From the NCBI GenBank assembly GCA_020356025.1, contig CP070630.1, positions 1,659,218-1,694,882 on the forward strand: a stretch of 35,665 nt of DNA, given 5' to 3'. A program made the translations under genes and the position numbers. Origin of the DNA: Dehalococcoidia bacterium (GTDB lineage Bacteria; Chloroflexota; Dehalococcoidia; SM23-28-2). How positions within the stretch are numbered: the stretch's first letter is position 1; every line of letters begins with the position of its first letter. This document shows positions 16,739 through 35,585 of the stretch, one piece after another. The notes under the pieces are model-generated. The model was not told the DNA's origin, searched no databases, and was given only the letters and a program-made list of their open reading frames with translations.

Positions 16739-17641
16739 CTACACGGCGCGAGGGTGGGCCTTCTCGTACACCTCCCGCACGTGCTCAGTCGCGAGATGCG
16801 TATAGACCTGAGTCGTGGAGATATTGGCGTGACCCAGCATCTCCTGGACGTGACGCAGGGGCATTCCGCCTCGCAGCATGTGGGTGGCAAAGCTGTGGCG
16901 CAGGGTGTGGGGCGTCACGTCATCGCGCAGGTTGGCTGCCTTGGCATATCCCTTCAGAATTAGCCAGAAGCCCTGACGCGTGAGCCGTTCGCCACGACGG
17001 TTGACGAAGAGAGCCTTTTCGTTCTTGTTGCGGACCATGAGGGGCCGCGCTTCGTTCACGTATTCCGCTAGCGCCTCTGTGGCTTGCTCGTGGATGGGGA
17101 TGATCCGCTCCTTGGCTCCCTTGCCCGTGCAGCGAACGGAAGGGTTCTTTCCGTCCACGTTGACGTTGGCTAGGTCCAGCGATACCAGTTCGGTGACTCG
17201 CATCCCGGTAGCGTATAGCAGTTCCAGCATCGCCCGGTCCCGTCTGGCCTCAGGCGTGGCTCGCTTGCTGGGCTGCTCTAGCAGTTCATCCACCTCATTG
17301 GGGGTGATGGCCTTGGGGAGCATCTTGCCGACACGCGGCGAAGCCAGACCTTCGGTGGGGTTGTCGGGCAGAATGCCCTCGGCAGCCAAGAAGCCAAAGA
17401 AGGAGCGGATGGCTGCTACCTTGCGGGCCACGGTCGTCTCGGCATACTTGCGCTGCTTCAGGTTGAGGATGAAATCCTGTATGAGCATGCGGTCGACCTT
17501 CTCCCAGCCCTTGCCATCACCGCTCGCCTTGAGGTACTCCGCCAGCTGTTCCAGGTCATTACGGTAAGCTGCGATCGTGTTGCTGGACGCCCCCTTCTCC
17601 GCCGAAAGAAAGTCCAAGAACGTACTCAGGTGGTTCTCCAT
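16739..17641 (-). CDS. xerD: Tyrosine recombinase of the XerC/XerD family
   Basis: 300 residues, the usual Xer length. The N-terminal core-binding (SAM-like) domain spans about 1-90 and the catalytic domain about 108-290. The full catalytic set is present: Arg148 (ATGMRVTEL), Lys174 (GKGAKER), His245 and Arg248 (HTLRHSFATHML), His271 (LGHANISTT) and the nucleophile Tyr280 (QVYTHL). Xer recombinases resolve chromosome dimers at dif; the sequence resembles XerD slightly more than XerC, but the two cannot be separated without a tree. ATG 17641 has GGAGG six bases upstream. It heads a same-strand run through the metallopeptidase to eno. No island sits beside it, so it is likely the housekeeping enzyme. 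Confidence 0.93.
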   Translation of the reverse strand: MENHLSTFLDFLSAEKGASSNTIAAYRNDLEQLAEYLKASGDGKGWEKVDRMLIQDFILNLKQRKYAETTVARKVAAIRSFFGFLAAEGILPDNPTEGLASPRVGKMLPKAITPNEVDELLEQPSKRATPEARRDRAMLELLYATGMRVTELVSLDLANVNVDGKNPSVRCTGKGAKERIIPIHEQATEALAEYVNEARPLMVRNKNEKALFVNRRGERLTRQGFWLILKGYAKAANLRDDVTPHTLRHSFATHMLRGGMPLRHVQEMLGHANISTTQVYTHLATEHVREVYEKAHPRAV

Positions 17642-21499: not shown

Positions 21500-22309
21500 A
21501 TGGTGTGGCGTAAGACCTTTCGACTAGCCCTGCTGGCCATCGCCGGCCTGGCGCTGTTGAGCCTGGCCGCAGCCTGCGAAGAGGAGGACGAGGGGCCGAC
21601 GACTACGCCCGCCGCGACGTCCGCGGCGACCAGCACGCCGCTTGCCAGTGAGTGTGTGCCCCAGGAGCCTCCCGAGGGTCAGGCCAACCTGTTCCACAAT
21701 CCGGGCCTCGAGTCGGGCCGGGAGCCCTGGTGCTCCCTTCATCCTGAGCAAGTACCTCCCTTCGAGGTGAGTCAGGATTTCGCTCAGTCCGGCGAGTCCA
21801 GCGCCCTGCTGCGGATGCGCGTGCCGGCCGAGGAGGTGGGCAAGGCGAAGGTGTTCTACCTCGTGCAGGAGGTAACACCCGAGGAGTTCCCCGAGCTGAT
21901 ATCAGGCTACTACCGAGTGGAGAGCTGGAGTAAGGGCACCCCCAAGCAGTATCTCCAGTTCGTCGTCATTGCCTTCGATGTCGTCAATCTGGAAGCCGGC
22001 TACCCCAACTACCAGATGCGCTACCCCCTGGCGGGCATCAGCGAGGAACCCTTCAACATCGCCAACGCCTTCTTCGTCTTCCTTACCAAGGAGGAGCCGC
22101 GCACCGGCGAGTGGATCTACTTTGAGCGCAATATCAAGGAAGACTTCGAGCAGTTCTGGGGAGTCGCGCCGGAAGGCTTCTCTAAGCTTCGCGTTCTGTT
22201 CGAGGTTCGCTACGATGACAAGCAGGCGGGCACTACTCCGGCGGAGGCTGACGTCTACTACGACAGCCTTTATATGGGGCCCGCCAGCGAGAACCCCAAC
22301 AACCCTTGA
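21500..22309 (+). CDS. Lipoprotein with a carbohydrate-binding-like jelly-roll domain
   Basis: 269 residues. Signal RKTFRLALLAIAGLALLSLA, lipobox LAAAC-EEEDEG, then a short TTP linker. The mature part starts with ANLFHNPGLESGREPWCS, the typical opening of CBM-like beta-sandwich domains, then FEVSQDFAQSGESSALLRM (ligand-face strand), VFYLVQEV, GYYRVESW and a C-terminal LRVLFEVRYDD ... ADVYYDSLYMG, again a jelly-roll closing strand. Sugar binding is inferred from this pattern only. ATG 21500 has GGGAGG four to five bases upstream; a longer open frame back to 21353 lacks this. It is divergent from uvrC; its stop codon overlaps the -35 of the following tRNA. Confidence 0.75.
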   Translation: MVWRKTFRLALLAIAGLALLSLAAACEEEDEGPTTTPAATSAATSTPLASECVPQEPPEGQANLFHNPGLESGREPWCSLHPEQVPPFEVSQDFAQSGESSALLRMRVPAEEVGKAKVFYLVQEVTPEEFPELISGYYRVESWSKGTPKQYLQFVVIAFDVVNLEAGYPNYQMRYPLAGISEEPFNIANAFFVFLTKEEPRTGEWIYFERNIKEDFEQFWGVAPEGFSKLRVLFEVRYDDKQAGTTPAEADVYYDSLYMGPASENPNNP

Positions 22310-22335
22310 AGTGCTTCTGTCGCCCCTGATATAAT
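22306..22335 (+). promoter_or_regulatory. tRNA promoter TTGAAG-N18-TATAAT
   Basis: TTGAAG (22306-22311, overlapping the upstream stop codon) and a perfect TATAAT (22330-22335), ending ten bases before the tRNA. Confidence 0.65.
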
Positions 22336-22345
22336 CGCCCTGCTC

Positions 22346-22417
22346 GGCAGCGTAGCTCAGTGGTAGAGCAGGGGACTCATAAGCCCTGGGTCGGGGGTTC
22401 GAATCCCTCCGCTGCCA
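22346..22417 (+). tRNA. tRNA with anticodon CAT (elongator Met, or Ile2)
   Basis: Acceptor stem GGCAGCG/CGCTGCC, D arm GCTC-AGTGGTA-GAGC, anticodon loop CTCATAA, variable GGGTC and T arm GGGGG-TTCGAAT-CCCTC, discriminator A. CCA is not encoded (ACTA follows). The anticodon stem GGGGA/GCCCT has an A-G mismatch next to the loop. It lacks the initiator hallmarks (1-72 mismatch, three G-C pairs), so it is elongator Met or a lysidine-modified Ile tRNA; sequence alone does not decide. The 3' part is repeated at 24718. Confidence 0.9.
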
Positions 22418-22438
22418 CTAGAGGCAAAGACCGAATCT

Positions 22439-22473
22439 GTCCCCTGGTCGCGAAACCAGGGGACTCGTCTTTT
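22439..22473 (+). terminator. Intrinsic terminator of the CAT tRNA
   Basis: Perfect 10-bp stem GTCCCCTGGT/ACCAGGGGAC with a six-base loop, followed by TCGTCTTTT, 21 bases after the tRNA. Confidence 0.8.
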
Positions 22474-22606
22474 CGGGACGTTTCTAGCTTGCTGACGTAG
22501 ATTCGCCAGAGCGCCCAATACCGCGGCGTCCGACGAGGGGATTACTGGGCCCTTGGTCAGCCCTGCCGCGCTTTCTGACCTCGGGTGACTGGTGTAGAAT
22601 ATTGCC

Positions 22607-22632
22607 GCCATGGAGCCGGGCATCCAGTACGC
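22607..22632 (-). repeat. Dispersed repeat copy (GCGTACTGGATGCC word), minus strand
   Basis: The reverse complement matches 33238-33263 at 24 of 26 bases, and weaker similarity continues on both sides. It lies inside the mini-island, upstream of the first membrane gene. Confidence 0.5.
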
Positions 22633-22704
22633 GCAGCGACCGAGTTGGTGGACCTCGCCATCCGACACGCTGACAGATTCGAAGTTGCGTAGGAGGAAGG
22701 AATC

Positions 22705-23406
22705 ATGGTAGGAGATGGCGCCCCATCAACAGAAAGTGGTCAGGAGCACCCCGTACACCCGGCCTGGGTCGAGGCCGCTTCCCACTGGGTTGAGATCGGT
22801 TCGGCCATCCTGATGGCTATAGCCCTGGTCGGCACCTCCTACAGCGCCTGGCAGTCCAATCGATGGGGGGGCGTGGAAGCCACGTCGTTCGCCCAAGCTT
22901 CGTCCGCCCGGACTGAGTGGGCGTCGATATTCGCTGGGGCCACCCAAGAGATAGCTTACGACGCTATTACCTTCGGCGAGTTCGCTCTCAAGTTCGGTTC
23001 GGCGGCTCTCGAAGATCCGGCCGTGAAGGATGAAGCCGAGGCTCTAGCGGATTTGCTGATGCGCGACGAGTTCCGTGTAGCCCTTGATGCATGGCTGGCT
23101 CTCGATCCGCTCAACAACCCTGACGCGCCGAAGACGCCTTTCGATGTCGCTGAGTACGAGAATGCCACCTTGACGATAGGGGACGAGCTTTTCAGATTGG
23201 CCGAAGAGAAGATGCAGGAGGGCAAGGAGGCGAACCAGAACAGCGACGACTACATCCTCGCGACGGTCTTCTTTGCATCCGTCGTGTTCTTTGCCGGGGT
23301 CGCGCCCAAGTTCAGAAGCATCAATGTGAGGCTCAGCGTGCTTGCACTCTCTCTTGTCGGGCTTGGCTTCGGTCTTGAGCGGGTGGCTACCCTCCCCTTC
23401 CACTAG
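22705..23406 (+). CDS. Three-helix membrane protein of unknown function
   Basis: 233 residues. One transmembrane helix lies near the N-terminus (IGSAILMAIALVGTSYSAWQS), followed by NRWGGVEATSFAQASSART. A helical soluble region of about 120 residues comes next, containing LALDPLNNPDAPKTPFDVAEY. Two C-terminal helices follow (ILATVFFASVVFFAGVA and LSVLALSLVGLGFGLERVATLPF). The combination of an AWQSNRWGG-type junction, NPxAPxxPF and a closing pair of helices is a pattern I know from unnamed membrane proteins of Actinobacteria and Chloroflexota; no function is established. ATG 22705 has a strong AGGAGGAAGGA site. A TGTAGAAT extended -10 at 22593-22600 may drive it. It is the first gene of the mini-island. 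Confidence 0.82.
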   Translation: MVGDGAPSTESGQEHPVHPAWVEAASHWVEIGSAILMAIALVGTSYSAWQSNRWGGVEATSFAQASSARTEWASIFAGATQEIAYDAITFGEFALKFGSAALEDPAVKDEAEALADLLMRDEFRVALDAWLALDPLNNPDAPKTPFDVAEYENATLTIGDELFRLAEEKMQEGKEANQNSDDYILATVFFASVVFFAGVAPKFRSINVRLSVLALSLVGLGFGLERVATLPFH

Positions 23407-23931
23407 CGCGCCGAACTCCCAAAGCTGCTGCTCCTCAGGGGTCAGCAGGGCCGCAGAACATTATGGTAGACGAATAAGCGTTCTACTGCCAAGAGTGTGA
23501 GGTCTCTCGGGCCGTTAGCATTCGTTGGAAGAAGCTGGGCCTACTGGCTTGGACGTAGTCGACCTCGATGCCGCCCGCGAGGGCGGGCCCGTCAATGTCC
23601 CGGGGATAGGCCACGTCATCGAGGCGGTCCTTATCCCGGTCCGCTGCTCGTTGGCCAGGGCGGCTCGGCTCTGAGCCTGTCAGCGTGCCCTTGCAGATCC
23701 CCCCATGGCAAAGATAGAATCCCCTGGGCAGCCGATTGGGTAAGGCGACCACGGGATTCGTTTATTGTTGAGGGTCTGAGAGTTGCCTGGGCAGAACCGC
23801 GCCGACAATAGTGATGCCTGGTCTGGAGTCAAAGGACTCTTCATCCAGGACTCGTCGGTTCAAATTACCCCGCGGCCCTTCAGGCGGCTTGAGCATCTGA
23901 CCGGTGATGCTGCACGACAAGGAGCTGTTGT
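23407..23931. other. Intergenic region inside the mini-island
   Basis: 525 bases with no supported gene. It contains a CCGCCC-GCGA-GGGCGG hairpin (23571-23586), a fragment GCTCTGAGCCTGTCAG resembling part of the uvrC palindromic element, and hairpin repeat copy 1. A minus-strand open frame of 89 codons crosses the repeat and is not believed. Confidence 0.5.
23691..23810. repeat. Hairpin repeat family, copy 1
   Basis: It starts TTGCAGATCCCCCCATGG and contains AAGATAGAATCCCCT. The 43-base hairpin at 23717-23759 is closed by GAATCCC/GGGATTC, with the loop words CAGCCGATTGGGTAAGGCGAC. The homology to copy 2 continues through GGGTCTGAGAGTTGCCTGGGCAGAA. Confidence 0.7.
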
Positions 23932-24345
23932 ATGCGCGAAAGGCTGATTTGGCTTAGCATCGGTATCGCTAGCATCTGGCTGGCCGTAACGCTTGTGAGC
24001 ATCTTCGCACCGGATTTTGTGAGCGGCAGCGAGCAGGAGCACATCCCTTTTGCGGCACTCTTCACATGGATCCCGGGGGCCTTTGCCAGCCGCTCCGTGC
24101 TAAATGAGATGGTGCGGCGCCGACATGGCAAGATAGAGCCCAAATACGTTTGGGCAGGTATCGCCATCACTACGGCGGGAATCTGGCTGGCGGTGACACT
24201 CGTGAGCATATTCGTTCCCCGAATGGAGACCGGATCCGATCCCACCCGGATACCGATAGCTGCGCTGCTGGCACCCATTGGAGGAGCAATTGGGACAGCT
24301 ATGGCCTGCGGGTACGCACGGGTGCTGGAAGAGGGCTTGGAGTAG
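23932..24345 (+). CDS. Internally duplicated four-helix membrane protein
   Basis: 137 residues built from two tandem copies of one unit: SIWLAVTLVSIFAPDFVSGS ... IPFAALFTWIPGA and GIWLAVTLVSIFVPRMETGS ... IPIAALLAPIGGA. Each copy gives two hydrophobic helices joined by a short polar loop with Gly-Ser and an acidic residue. The copies are linked by a basic segment (NEMVRRRHGKIEPK), so the topology should be two hairpins with the basic link inside. The nine-residue string WLAVTLVSI is identical in both halves and the DNA is similar too, suggesting a fairly recent duplication. ATG 23932 has AAGGAG seven bases upstream. I do not recognise the family; a small channel, transporter or antirepressor-like membrane module cannot be told apart. 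Confidence 0.75.
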   Translation: MRERLIWLSIGIASIWLAVTLVSIFAPDFVSGSEQEHIPFAALFTWIPGAFASRSVLNEMVRRRHGKIEPKYVWAGIAITTAGIWLAVTLVSIFVPRMETGSDPTRIPIAALLAPIGGAIGTAMACGYARVLEEGLE

Positions 24346-24717
24346 GAGTGCCAGGTCAGACGCGCCACCTGGCAAAGGGCAGCCAATTTGAGTGTGAATA
24401 TCCCTGGACGGACTGGGGGCTGCAATCCCATGCGGAGCTGAATCAAGATGCCGCTGTGTCATCTCCCTCGCCTCAGATGCGAGGAGCAAGTCCAAGTGGG
24501 GGCCGAGATGTACCTCAGGGGCCCTAAACAGATTCAGCGGAGCAGACAGAAGCCTCCCAACCAGAGAGACGGGGGCCGATTGCAGGCTGCCCCACGGTCA
24601 AGGTAGAATCCCCTCGTCAGCCATTTCGGCAAGGCGACCAGGGGATTTGTCCACTGTAGGGGGTCTGTGAGTTGCCTGGGCAGAATCGGGTAGACAAGTT
24701 CGTACCTGTTCTTGCCC
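24346..24717. other. Intergenic region at the right end of the mini-island
   Basis: No gene seen. Most of it is hairpin repeat copy 2, which ends about 20 bases before the tRNA-derived direct repeat. Confidence 0.5.
24580..24698. repeat. Hairpin repeat family, copy 2
   Basis: It begins TTGCAGGCTGCCCCACGGTC. The 43-base hairpin is at 24606-24648 (GAATCCCCT ... AGGGGATTT) with the loop word CAAGGCGAC, followed by GGGTCTGTGAGTTGCCTGGG as in copy 1. Confidence 0.7.
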
Positions 24718-24767
24718 CAGAGGACTCATAAGCCCTGGATCGGGGGTTCAAATCCCTCCGCTGCCAC
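24718..24767 (+). repeat. Partial tRNA copy (direct repeat of the CAT tRNA 3' end)
   Basis: 47 of 50 bases match 22369-22418, from just before the anticodon stem through the acceptor end. It has no D arm or 5' acceptor strand, so it cannot be a functional tRNA. Confidence 0.85.
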
Positions 24768-24799
24768 CACGAACCGCACGATGGTGGGGGCCGCAGGAC

Positions 24800-32055: not shown

Positions 32056-32158
32056 GTGGTTGGTGCCCATGCGTCTTGCCCCGGGGGACTCATAAGCCCC
32101 CAGGTGGGGGAACCTGCCTGCCGTGGCGGGTTCGAATCCCTCCGCTACCACCAACCAC
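32056..32158 (+). ncRNA. Closed tRNA-like structured element
   Basis: 103 bases bounded by perfect 10-bp inverted ends, GTGGTTGGTG (32056-32065) and CACCAACCAC (32149-32158). Inside are an anticodon-arm-like hairpin GGGGG-ACTCATAAG-CCCCC (a CAT-type loop), a small AGGT-GGGGGA-ACCT stem, the word CTGCCTGCCGTGGCGGG, and a T-arm-like GGGTTCGAATCCC. There is no D arm. It lies between the convergent aldolase and MBL genes and could be a decayed tRNA, an RNA terminator or a tRNA-mimic RNA. Confidence 0.4.
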
Positions 32159-34334: not shown

Positions 34335-34770
34335 TTGCCCGTGAGCCGCCCGCCGTGGCGGGTTCGAATCCCTCCGCTGCTGGCAAGCACGCCTACGCTG
34401 CCACCACCGTGGGATCTCTCTCTCAATGTAACTCTGATTATCCTCGGTTGATTGGCCTCGAATTCCGCACCGCCGAAGGTCATCGCCACTCTGTCTGTTG
34501 ACAACACCCCTCACGCGCGGGCCGTCAACGCCGAGGGCTCTCGCTTTCTCTTGAACGCCACGCTGGCAGAGATCCCAGGGCCAAGTGAGTATTTTCCGCC
34601 TTGCCCAAGGCTGTGGCTGCACCGATAATTCCGCTGGTTGACCAGCGACTCCGCAGGTGCTTGGGGCGGGGAGATGTAATGTGCAGGCCGGCATTTCCTA
34701 CCCTAAGGACGGAGACTAGCGGCGCTCGTTGGTCGGAACGGCTTGATCATCAGACAAGGAGGTTCAGCCA
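34335..34770. other. Divergent intergenic region with a tRNA-like fragment
   Basis: No gene supported. It holds the repeat fragment at 34344-34408 and a distant inverted pair GTTGAC/GTCAAC near 34498 and 34525. A long minus-strand open frame (161 codons) crosses the repeat and the promoter and is not believed. Confidence 0.5.
34344..34408 (+). repeat. tRNA-like 3'-end fragment
   Basis: GCCCGCCGTGGCGGGTTCGA, then ATCCCTCCGCTGCT, shares its core with 29219-29252 and 32118-32149. A second CGCTGCCACCACC follows at 34396-34408. Confidence 0.6.
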
Positions 34771-35378: not shown

Positions 35379-35447
35379 TTGCAGATTCCCCCACGGTCAA
35401 GATAGAATCCCCTCGCCAGCCAATTGGGCAAGCCGACCAGGGGATTC
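35379..35447. repeat. Hairpin repeat family, copy 3
   Basis: It begins TTGCAGATTCCCCCACGGTC; the 43-base hairpin is at 35405-35447 (GAATCCCCT ... AGGGGATTC) with the loop words CAGCCAATTGGGCAAGCCGAC. It stops just upstream of the tRNA-Val promoter; the 3' half found in copies 1 and 2 is absent. Confidence 0.7.
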
Positions 35448-35465
35448 ACGCTGCCCCCCGATCGC

Positions 35466-35510: not shown

Positions 35511-35585
35511 GGGCGGTTAGCTCAGCGGGAGAGCGCTTGCTTCACACGCAAGAGGTCGCAGGTTCAAACCCTGCACCGCCCACCA
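35511..35585 (+). tRNA. tRNA-Val (anticodon CAC)
   Basis: Acceptor GGGCGGT/ACCGCCC, D arm GCTC-AGCGGGA-GAGC, anticodon arm CTTGC-TTCACAC-GCAAG, variable AGGTC, T arm GCAGG-TTCAAAC-CCTGC, discriminator A and an encoded CCA (35583-35585). All stems are perfectly paired. Confidence 0.96.

Follow-up and report, generated by a model that had tools for sequence, protein, structure and literature searches.

A candidate integrase-less integrative element at a tRNA-Met gene of a Dehalococcoidia bacterium, with sister elements at tRNA-Lys

The island at the CAT tRNA and its genes

We have analyzed a 35,665-nucleotide stretch of the 2.18-Mb genome of a Dehalococcoidia bacterium, here called the window, in which a tRNA gene with anticodon CAT is followed by an island bounded by a repeat of the tRNA 3' part. 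The features of the locus are collected in Table 1. The two copies of the repeat, 22369-22418 and 24718-24767, lie in direct orientation and are identical at 47 of 50 bases; at all three differing positions (22372, 22390 and 22401) the tRNA has G and the distal copy A. When the whole genome was searched, the distal copy was the sole other strong match to the CAT tRNA (E 4.8e-17). The proximal copy is without CCA, which fits ordinary attL/attR geometry: the tRNA end carried by the element runs to ...CCAC and no further, and the native end bearing CCA is displaced. Between the repeats there are only two ORFs and no recombinase, and the second ORF contains a 50-nt duplication with 76% identity. 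The direct repeat, the CCA on its distal copy only, the two small ORFs, the duplication in the second protein and the lack of an integrase had all been reported in a preliminary description of the locus, and all are upheld here.

Table 1. Features of the tRNA-Met locus and the region up to tRNA-Val, in window coordinates
Feature	Position	Strand	Remarks
Promoter-like site of CAT tRNA	22306-22335	+	TTGAAG-18-TATAAT
tRNA, anticodon CAT (tRNA-Met)	22346-22418	+	intact, no encoded CCA; attL core 22369-22418
Left end of element	22419-22560	+	arm-like sites 22438-22449 (-), 22454-22465 (+), 22532-22543 (+, exact)
Hairpin	22439-22464	+	formed from two arm-like sites, then a short T-rich tail
Cargo gene 1	22705-23406	+	233-aa helical membrane protein
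Right-end module, copy 1	23691-23808	+	TTGCAG-18-TAGAAT; arm-like sites 23718-23729 (-), 23747-23758 (+), one mismatch each
Internal att relic	23832-23883	+	tRNA-Lys-type 3' piece, inside the island
Cargo gene 2	23932-24345	+	137-aa membrane protein with internal duplication
Right-end module, copy 2	24580-24697	+	TTGCAG-18-TAGAAT; arm-like sites 24607-24618 (-), 24636-24647 (+), both exact
attR core	24718-24770	+	CAT tRNA 3' part from the anticodon stem onward, with CCA
tRNA-Met 3' piece	about 32074-32155	+	with CCA; insertion before the T arm
tRNA-Met T-arm piece	34346-34404	+	interrupted
Third right-end module	35379-35449	+	truncated, without its att core; immediately before the tRNA-Val promoter
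tRNA-Val (CAC)	35511-35585	+	right border of the hotspot

Relatives of cargo protein 1 were found in 7 other genomes among 393 genomes of the class, at 8 loci and with 28-57% identity. No tRNA stands alongside them in the regions read at these loci, and in at least two (L092 and L095) they stand among other membrane-protein genes. Thus cargo gene 1 is a member of an accessory family and not a marker of the element. Protein searches of GTDB contigs, viral contigs, phages and plasmids gave no relatives of it. Cargo protein 2 had no more than marginal matches, with no relatives in the viral contigs. In the three nearest genomes (G001-G003, all drafts) neither gene was detected. A structure model of cargo protein 1 built from nine sequences has long helices and a mean pLDDT of 84, and a fold search with it returned nothing significant (best E 0.068); the model of cargo protein 2 is poor (pLDDT 61). 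Neither protein scored above the Pfam cut-off, and weak matches to SLAC1, PgaD and DUF4337, all below it, were set aside. A PADLOC scan of both proteins gave 0 hits. The earlier suggestion of a defence or stress cargo was thus not borne out, and nothing supports a defence role. The hairpin at the left end may double as a terminator.

Right-end modules and 12-bp arm-like sites

The hairpin repeat that had been described as occurring twice in the island does so, but the two copies are element right ends carrying arm-like sites and not independent cargo repeats; a third copy of the module, further along the window, and the fixed distance between repeat and tRNA piece had been overlooked. Copies 1 and 2 are 118 nt each and identical at 92 of 118 positions. 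The module is composed of a promoter-like TTGCAG-N17/18-TANAAT that overlaps an inverted pair of 12-mers, AATCCCCTSGTC and GACSAGGGGATT, the first of which overlaps the -10 box. A model built on the first 71 nt of the module detected further copies at window position 35379, at 98504 of the same genome, and in relatives. In all seven copies that bear a core, whether tRNA-Met or tRNA-Lys, the -35 hexamer lies 143-146 bp ahead of the tRNA core, the spacer is 17 or 18 and TANAAT is kept. The inverted sites stand at -99/-101 and -70/-71, with the outer site alone detected in G255. The same 12-mers recur at the left end of the island, just past the tRNA (Table 1).

Exact copies of AATCCCCTSGTC number five in the whole genome: three of them lie within the island, a fourth is in the third module (35435), and the fifth falls in a gene upstream of a tRNA-Lys. 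With up to one mismatch allowed, the genome contains 40 sites, against 8 for a reversed control pattern. The four complete elements known to us (this one and the three at tRNA-Lys described below) hold 18 sites with at most one mismatch, counting those at the internal att junction of the window island; all are near att junctions, and the background is 0.096 per kb. From their position and geometry the 12-mers are putative integrase sites. In tRNA-associated prophages, integrase promoters are documented that overlap attachment sites and that the integrase represses (PMC2951348), and an arm site overlapping the -10 box would agree with such an arrangement.

The module has no Rfam match. Its reading as an RNA gene was set aside, as was its reading as an integron attC; the junctions seen are tRNA 3' pieces. 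Among the 393 genomes, the right-end model gave strong matches in the source genome (G000), G012 and G024 only, and weak ones in G017, G239, G255 and G206. A tRNA-Lys core and left arms support the match in G255; after those in G017, G239 and G206 no tRNA core was seen. The right end is absent from the viral contigs, phages and plasmids searched. A search with the left-end pattern gave 7 matches, 3 of which are the known tRNA-Lys elements; the other 4, with no tRNA nearby and at the level of the control pattern, were discarded.

Insertions between tRNA-Met and tRNA-Val and at tRNA-Lys

The gap between tRNA-Met and tRNA-Val is about 13 kb here, and the island is its tRNA-proximal part. The preliminary description had proposed a search of related genomes for an empty site, and in the genomes compared, which are drafts and several of them less than 90% complete, near-empty sites are indeed present: the CAT tRNA and tRNA-Val(CAC) are separated by 211 bp in G010, 97 bp in G012 and 150 bp in G017. 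In the same-genus genome G001 this interval is about 2.2 kb and is occupied by genes for a ParB-like protein and an Mrr-like endonuclease (L026 6040-8030), possibly a defence pair. Past the 2.35-kb unit the array in the window comprises genes for a solute-binding protein, a GH31 glycosidase, a phosphofructokinase-like protein, a DeoC/LacD-like protein, a metallo-beta-lactamase-fold protein, a methyltransferase and a small secreted protein.

Further tRNA-Met pieces, also overlooked before, lie within this array. The first, with CCA, is the probable attR of an older insertion, and the interrupted T-arm piece beyond it is probably the relic of a still older one. Both have a similar GC-rich, hairpin-like stretch, CC(T/C)GCCGTGGCGGGTT, just 5' of the T arm (32108-32130 and 34346-34370). 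Because each new insertion at a tRNA displaces earlier ones outward, the tRNA-proximal 2.35-kb unit is probably the youngest. It also has an internal boundary that had been missed, the piece at 23832-23883, which aligns better to the tRNA-Lys piece (score 65) than to tRNA-Met (score 50; shuffled sequences reach at most 43-47). On this alignment the 2.35-kb unit is itself composite.

Three more complete elements, 2.95-3.8 kb in size and with the same right-end geometry, were found in G012, G024 (contig 31) and G255 (Chloroflexota). In each of them a tRNA-Lys(TTT) 3' piece comes after the right end, and the upstream bound, 2.95-3.8 kb away, is an intact tRNA-Lys in G012 and G255 and a degenerate tRNA-Lys piece in G024. 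Two direct 12-mers 19-20 bp apart (+58/+78, +69/+88 and +69/+89, spanning +58 to +89) come directly after this upstream tRNA or piece, an arm layout unlike that of the left end of the Met element. As cargo, the G012 element has a ferredoxin-like protein together with an NDH-2-like oxidoreductase, that of G024 a large secreted protein, and that of G255 SnoaL-like and DinB-like ORFs. The flank past the distal piece in G012 matches the sequence directly after an intact tRNA-Lys on contig 16 of G024 at 73 of 89 positions (score 101; shuffles at most 32), and the inner left end of the G012 element matches that of the contig-31 element at 95 of 108. The insertion in G012 is therefore visible against an unoccupied flank. 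A tRNA-Gly 5' half directly abuts the element right end at L058 5186-5235 and, in degenerate form, at L059 (G024).

At least ten 3' pieces of tRNA-Lys/Arg(TCT) type are distributed over the chromosome of the source genome, most of them with no intact tRNA nearby in the regions read (for example at 88141, 92960, 98647, 201010, 309760, 961494, 1477165, 1709121, 1959654 and 2172991). Four of these have a different right end in common, which contains TTTCACCCC direct repeats. A frame-broken tyrosine integrase gene lies just upstream of a tRNA-Lys piece with this second right-end type (L065 17492-18474), and a truncated C-terminal part of an integrase adjoins the 3' end of an intact tRNA-Lys shortly past the end of the window (G000:C1:1695386-1695565).

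Origin of the element and its relation to known systems

No integrase match was obtained inside any of the four complete elements, a result based on tblastn with four queries together with Pfam searches of selected ORFs. A helper integrase associated with these arm sites was found neither in the 393 genomes of the class nor in the viral contigs. Besides the frame-broken and the truncated gene described above, recombinase genes elsewhere in the source genome are an Xer-like gene at 16739-17641 of the window, which is the nearest complete one, a second Xer-like gene by topA, and one recombinase gene at tRNA-Asn. In G004 an integrase gene directly follows the CAT tRNA (L100 2573-3878), and a tRNA-Met piece with different direct repeats, TGACGGCAAAAC, is found on another contig (L101 1338-1388). 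This locus is probably an autonomous element at the same tRNA-Met target; its integrase is not supported as a helper, because the neighbouring repeats differ.

We consider it likely that 22419-24767 is an integrase-less integrative element belonging to a family with shared arm-like sites and right-end geometry. It is best read as comparable to a cis-mobilizable element or to a tyrosine-integrase MITE. Its two ends resemble a full tyrosine-integrase attachment system: the left (P) arm follows the tRNA, the right (P') arm precedes the distal piece, and the core is in the anticodon arm of the CAT tRNA. On insertion, the 3' end carried by the element would have restored the tRNA, pushing the native 3' end with its CCA to the far side. 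Repetition of such events would have piled up several insertions between tRNA-Met and tRNA-Val, and the same family is present at tRNA-Lys in other Chloroflexota with different accessory genes. The predicted empty site is the tRNA joined to CACGAACCGCACG, and the predicted circular junction runs from the right end, through ...CCCCAGAGGACTCATAAG...CCGCTGCCAC, into TAGAGGCAAAGACCGAATCTG. The right-end promoter is directed outward across the att site. In a circular form of the element, transcription from it would enter the left end and drive the left-most gene, the place where autonomous relatives would often keep the integrase gene.

The proposal that the island is a satellite mobilised in trans is retained as far as a tyrosine-integrase-type insertion at a tRNA by a unit without its own integrase is concerned, but its helper was not found. 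As there is no integrase inside, the element, if still mobile, depends on a helper, and its excision and insertion would require an integrase from that helper or from a neighbouring element. This copy may be immobile, since its distal core has three changes and its internal core is badly decayed. A more specific idea can be put forward only tentatively: that these elements constitute a MITE-like family without integrase, which keeps full arms and a fixed right-end geometry, carries one or a few accessory genes, and is moved by a helper into tRNA-Met or tRNA-Lys. The anticodon-arm cores of these two tRNAs have GGACTNNTAANCC in common.

The strongest competing explanation, although we regard it as rather unlikely, is that the elements are independently decayed autonomous islands from which the integrase was deleted, that is, classical cis-mobilizable elements or fossils and not integrase-less movers. 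Integrase pieces do occur beside other att copies in the tRNA-Lys arrays of the same genomes (L059 15229-15342 and L065 17530-18474), the distal and internal cores are mutated, and many lone tRNA-Lys/Arg pieces are scattered in the source genome. However, no integrase remnant was detected in any of the four complete elements though both ends are well kept, and their sizes are similar (2.3-3.8 kb) while their cargo differs. That the 118-nt repeat is instead a host small regulatory RNA or promoter module unrelated to integration is very improbable; it does have promoter-like hexamers that are conserved, a spacer varying between 17 and 18, and then a hairpin, but it keeps a fixed distance to tRNA pieces at two tRNA targets, shares its 12-mers with the left ends and lacks an Rfam match. 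Copying of the tRNA end and its flanks by replication slippage, a chance local duplication, is hardly credible: the Met-core locus is the single one of its kind in the genome, as such an event would have it, but near-empty sites in relatives, the internal Lys-type core and the sister elements at tRNA-Lys all speak for the site-specific insertion that we favour.

The nearest concepts are accreted CIMEs (PMC5704250) and the recombinase-less ssrA islands of Dehalococcoides (PMC3146451). CIMEs, which accrete in tandem as in the ICESt1-related elements, are flanked by attL and attR, lack integration and transfer genes and stand in tandem at one site (PMC5704250). The island likewise retains attL and attR and has no integration or transfer genes inside; in contrast to known CIMEs, which derive from identified ICEs or IMEs, its parent was not found, and one set of arm-like sites here serves two tRNA targets. 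The ssrA islands are also tandem Chloroflexota islands bounded by RNA-gene 3' pieces, and 15 of them, without an integration module, were suggested to be cis-mobilizable (PMC3146451). They are inserted at the tmRNA gene, are associated with serine recombinases and bear rdhA genes, whereas the target here is the CAT tRNA and the family targets tRNA anticodon arms and has arm-like sites. Islands of the Islander class combine an intact tRNA, a same-orientation 3' fragment and an anticodon-centred core, as this island does, but an integrase gene is required inside each of them (PMC4383910) and none is present here. Tycheposons are tRNA-anchored cargo elements too, tRNA-Met included, but they are defined with a tyrosine recombinase and measure 4-200 kb (PMC10872708); the present element is smaller and recombinase-less. 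The family is set apart by its targets, its anticodon-arm cores and the keeping of one arm set with two tRNA cores.

Insertions of this type are missed by island finders that require an integrase, such as Islander. They offer a concrete case for how a single arm set becomes combined with more than one tRNA core. Should the family prove real, its arm sites would serve as a search key for the helper integrase, and small accessory genes of Chloroflexota may spread as minimal cassettes that require no more than attachment arms and a tRNA end.
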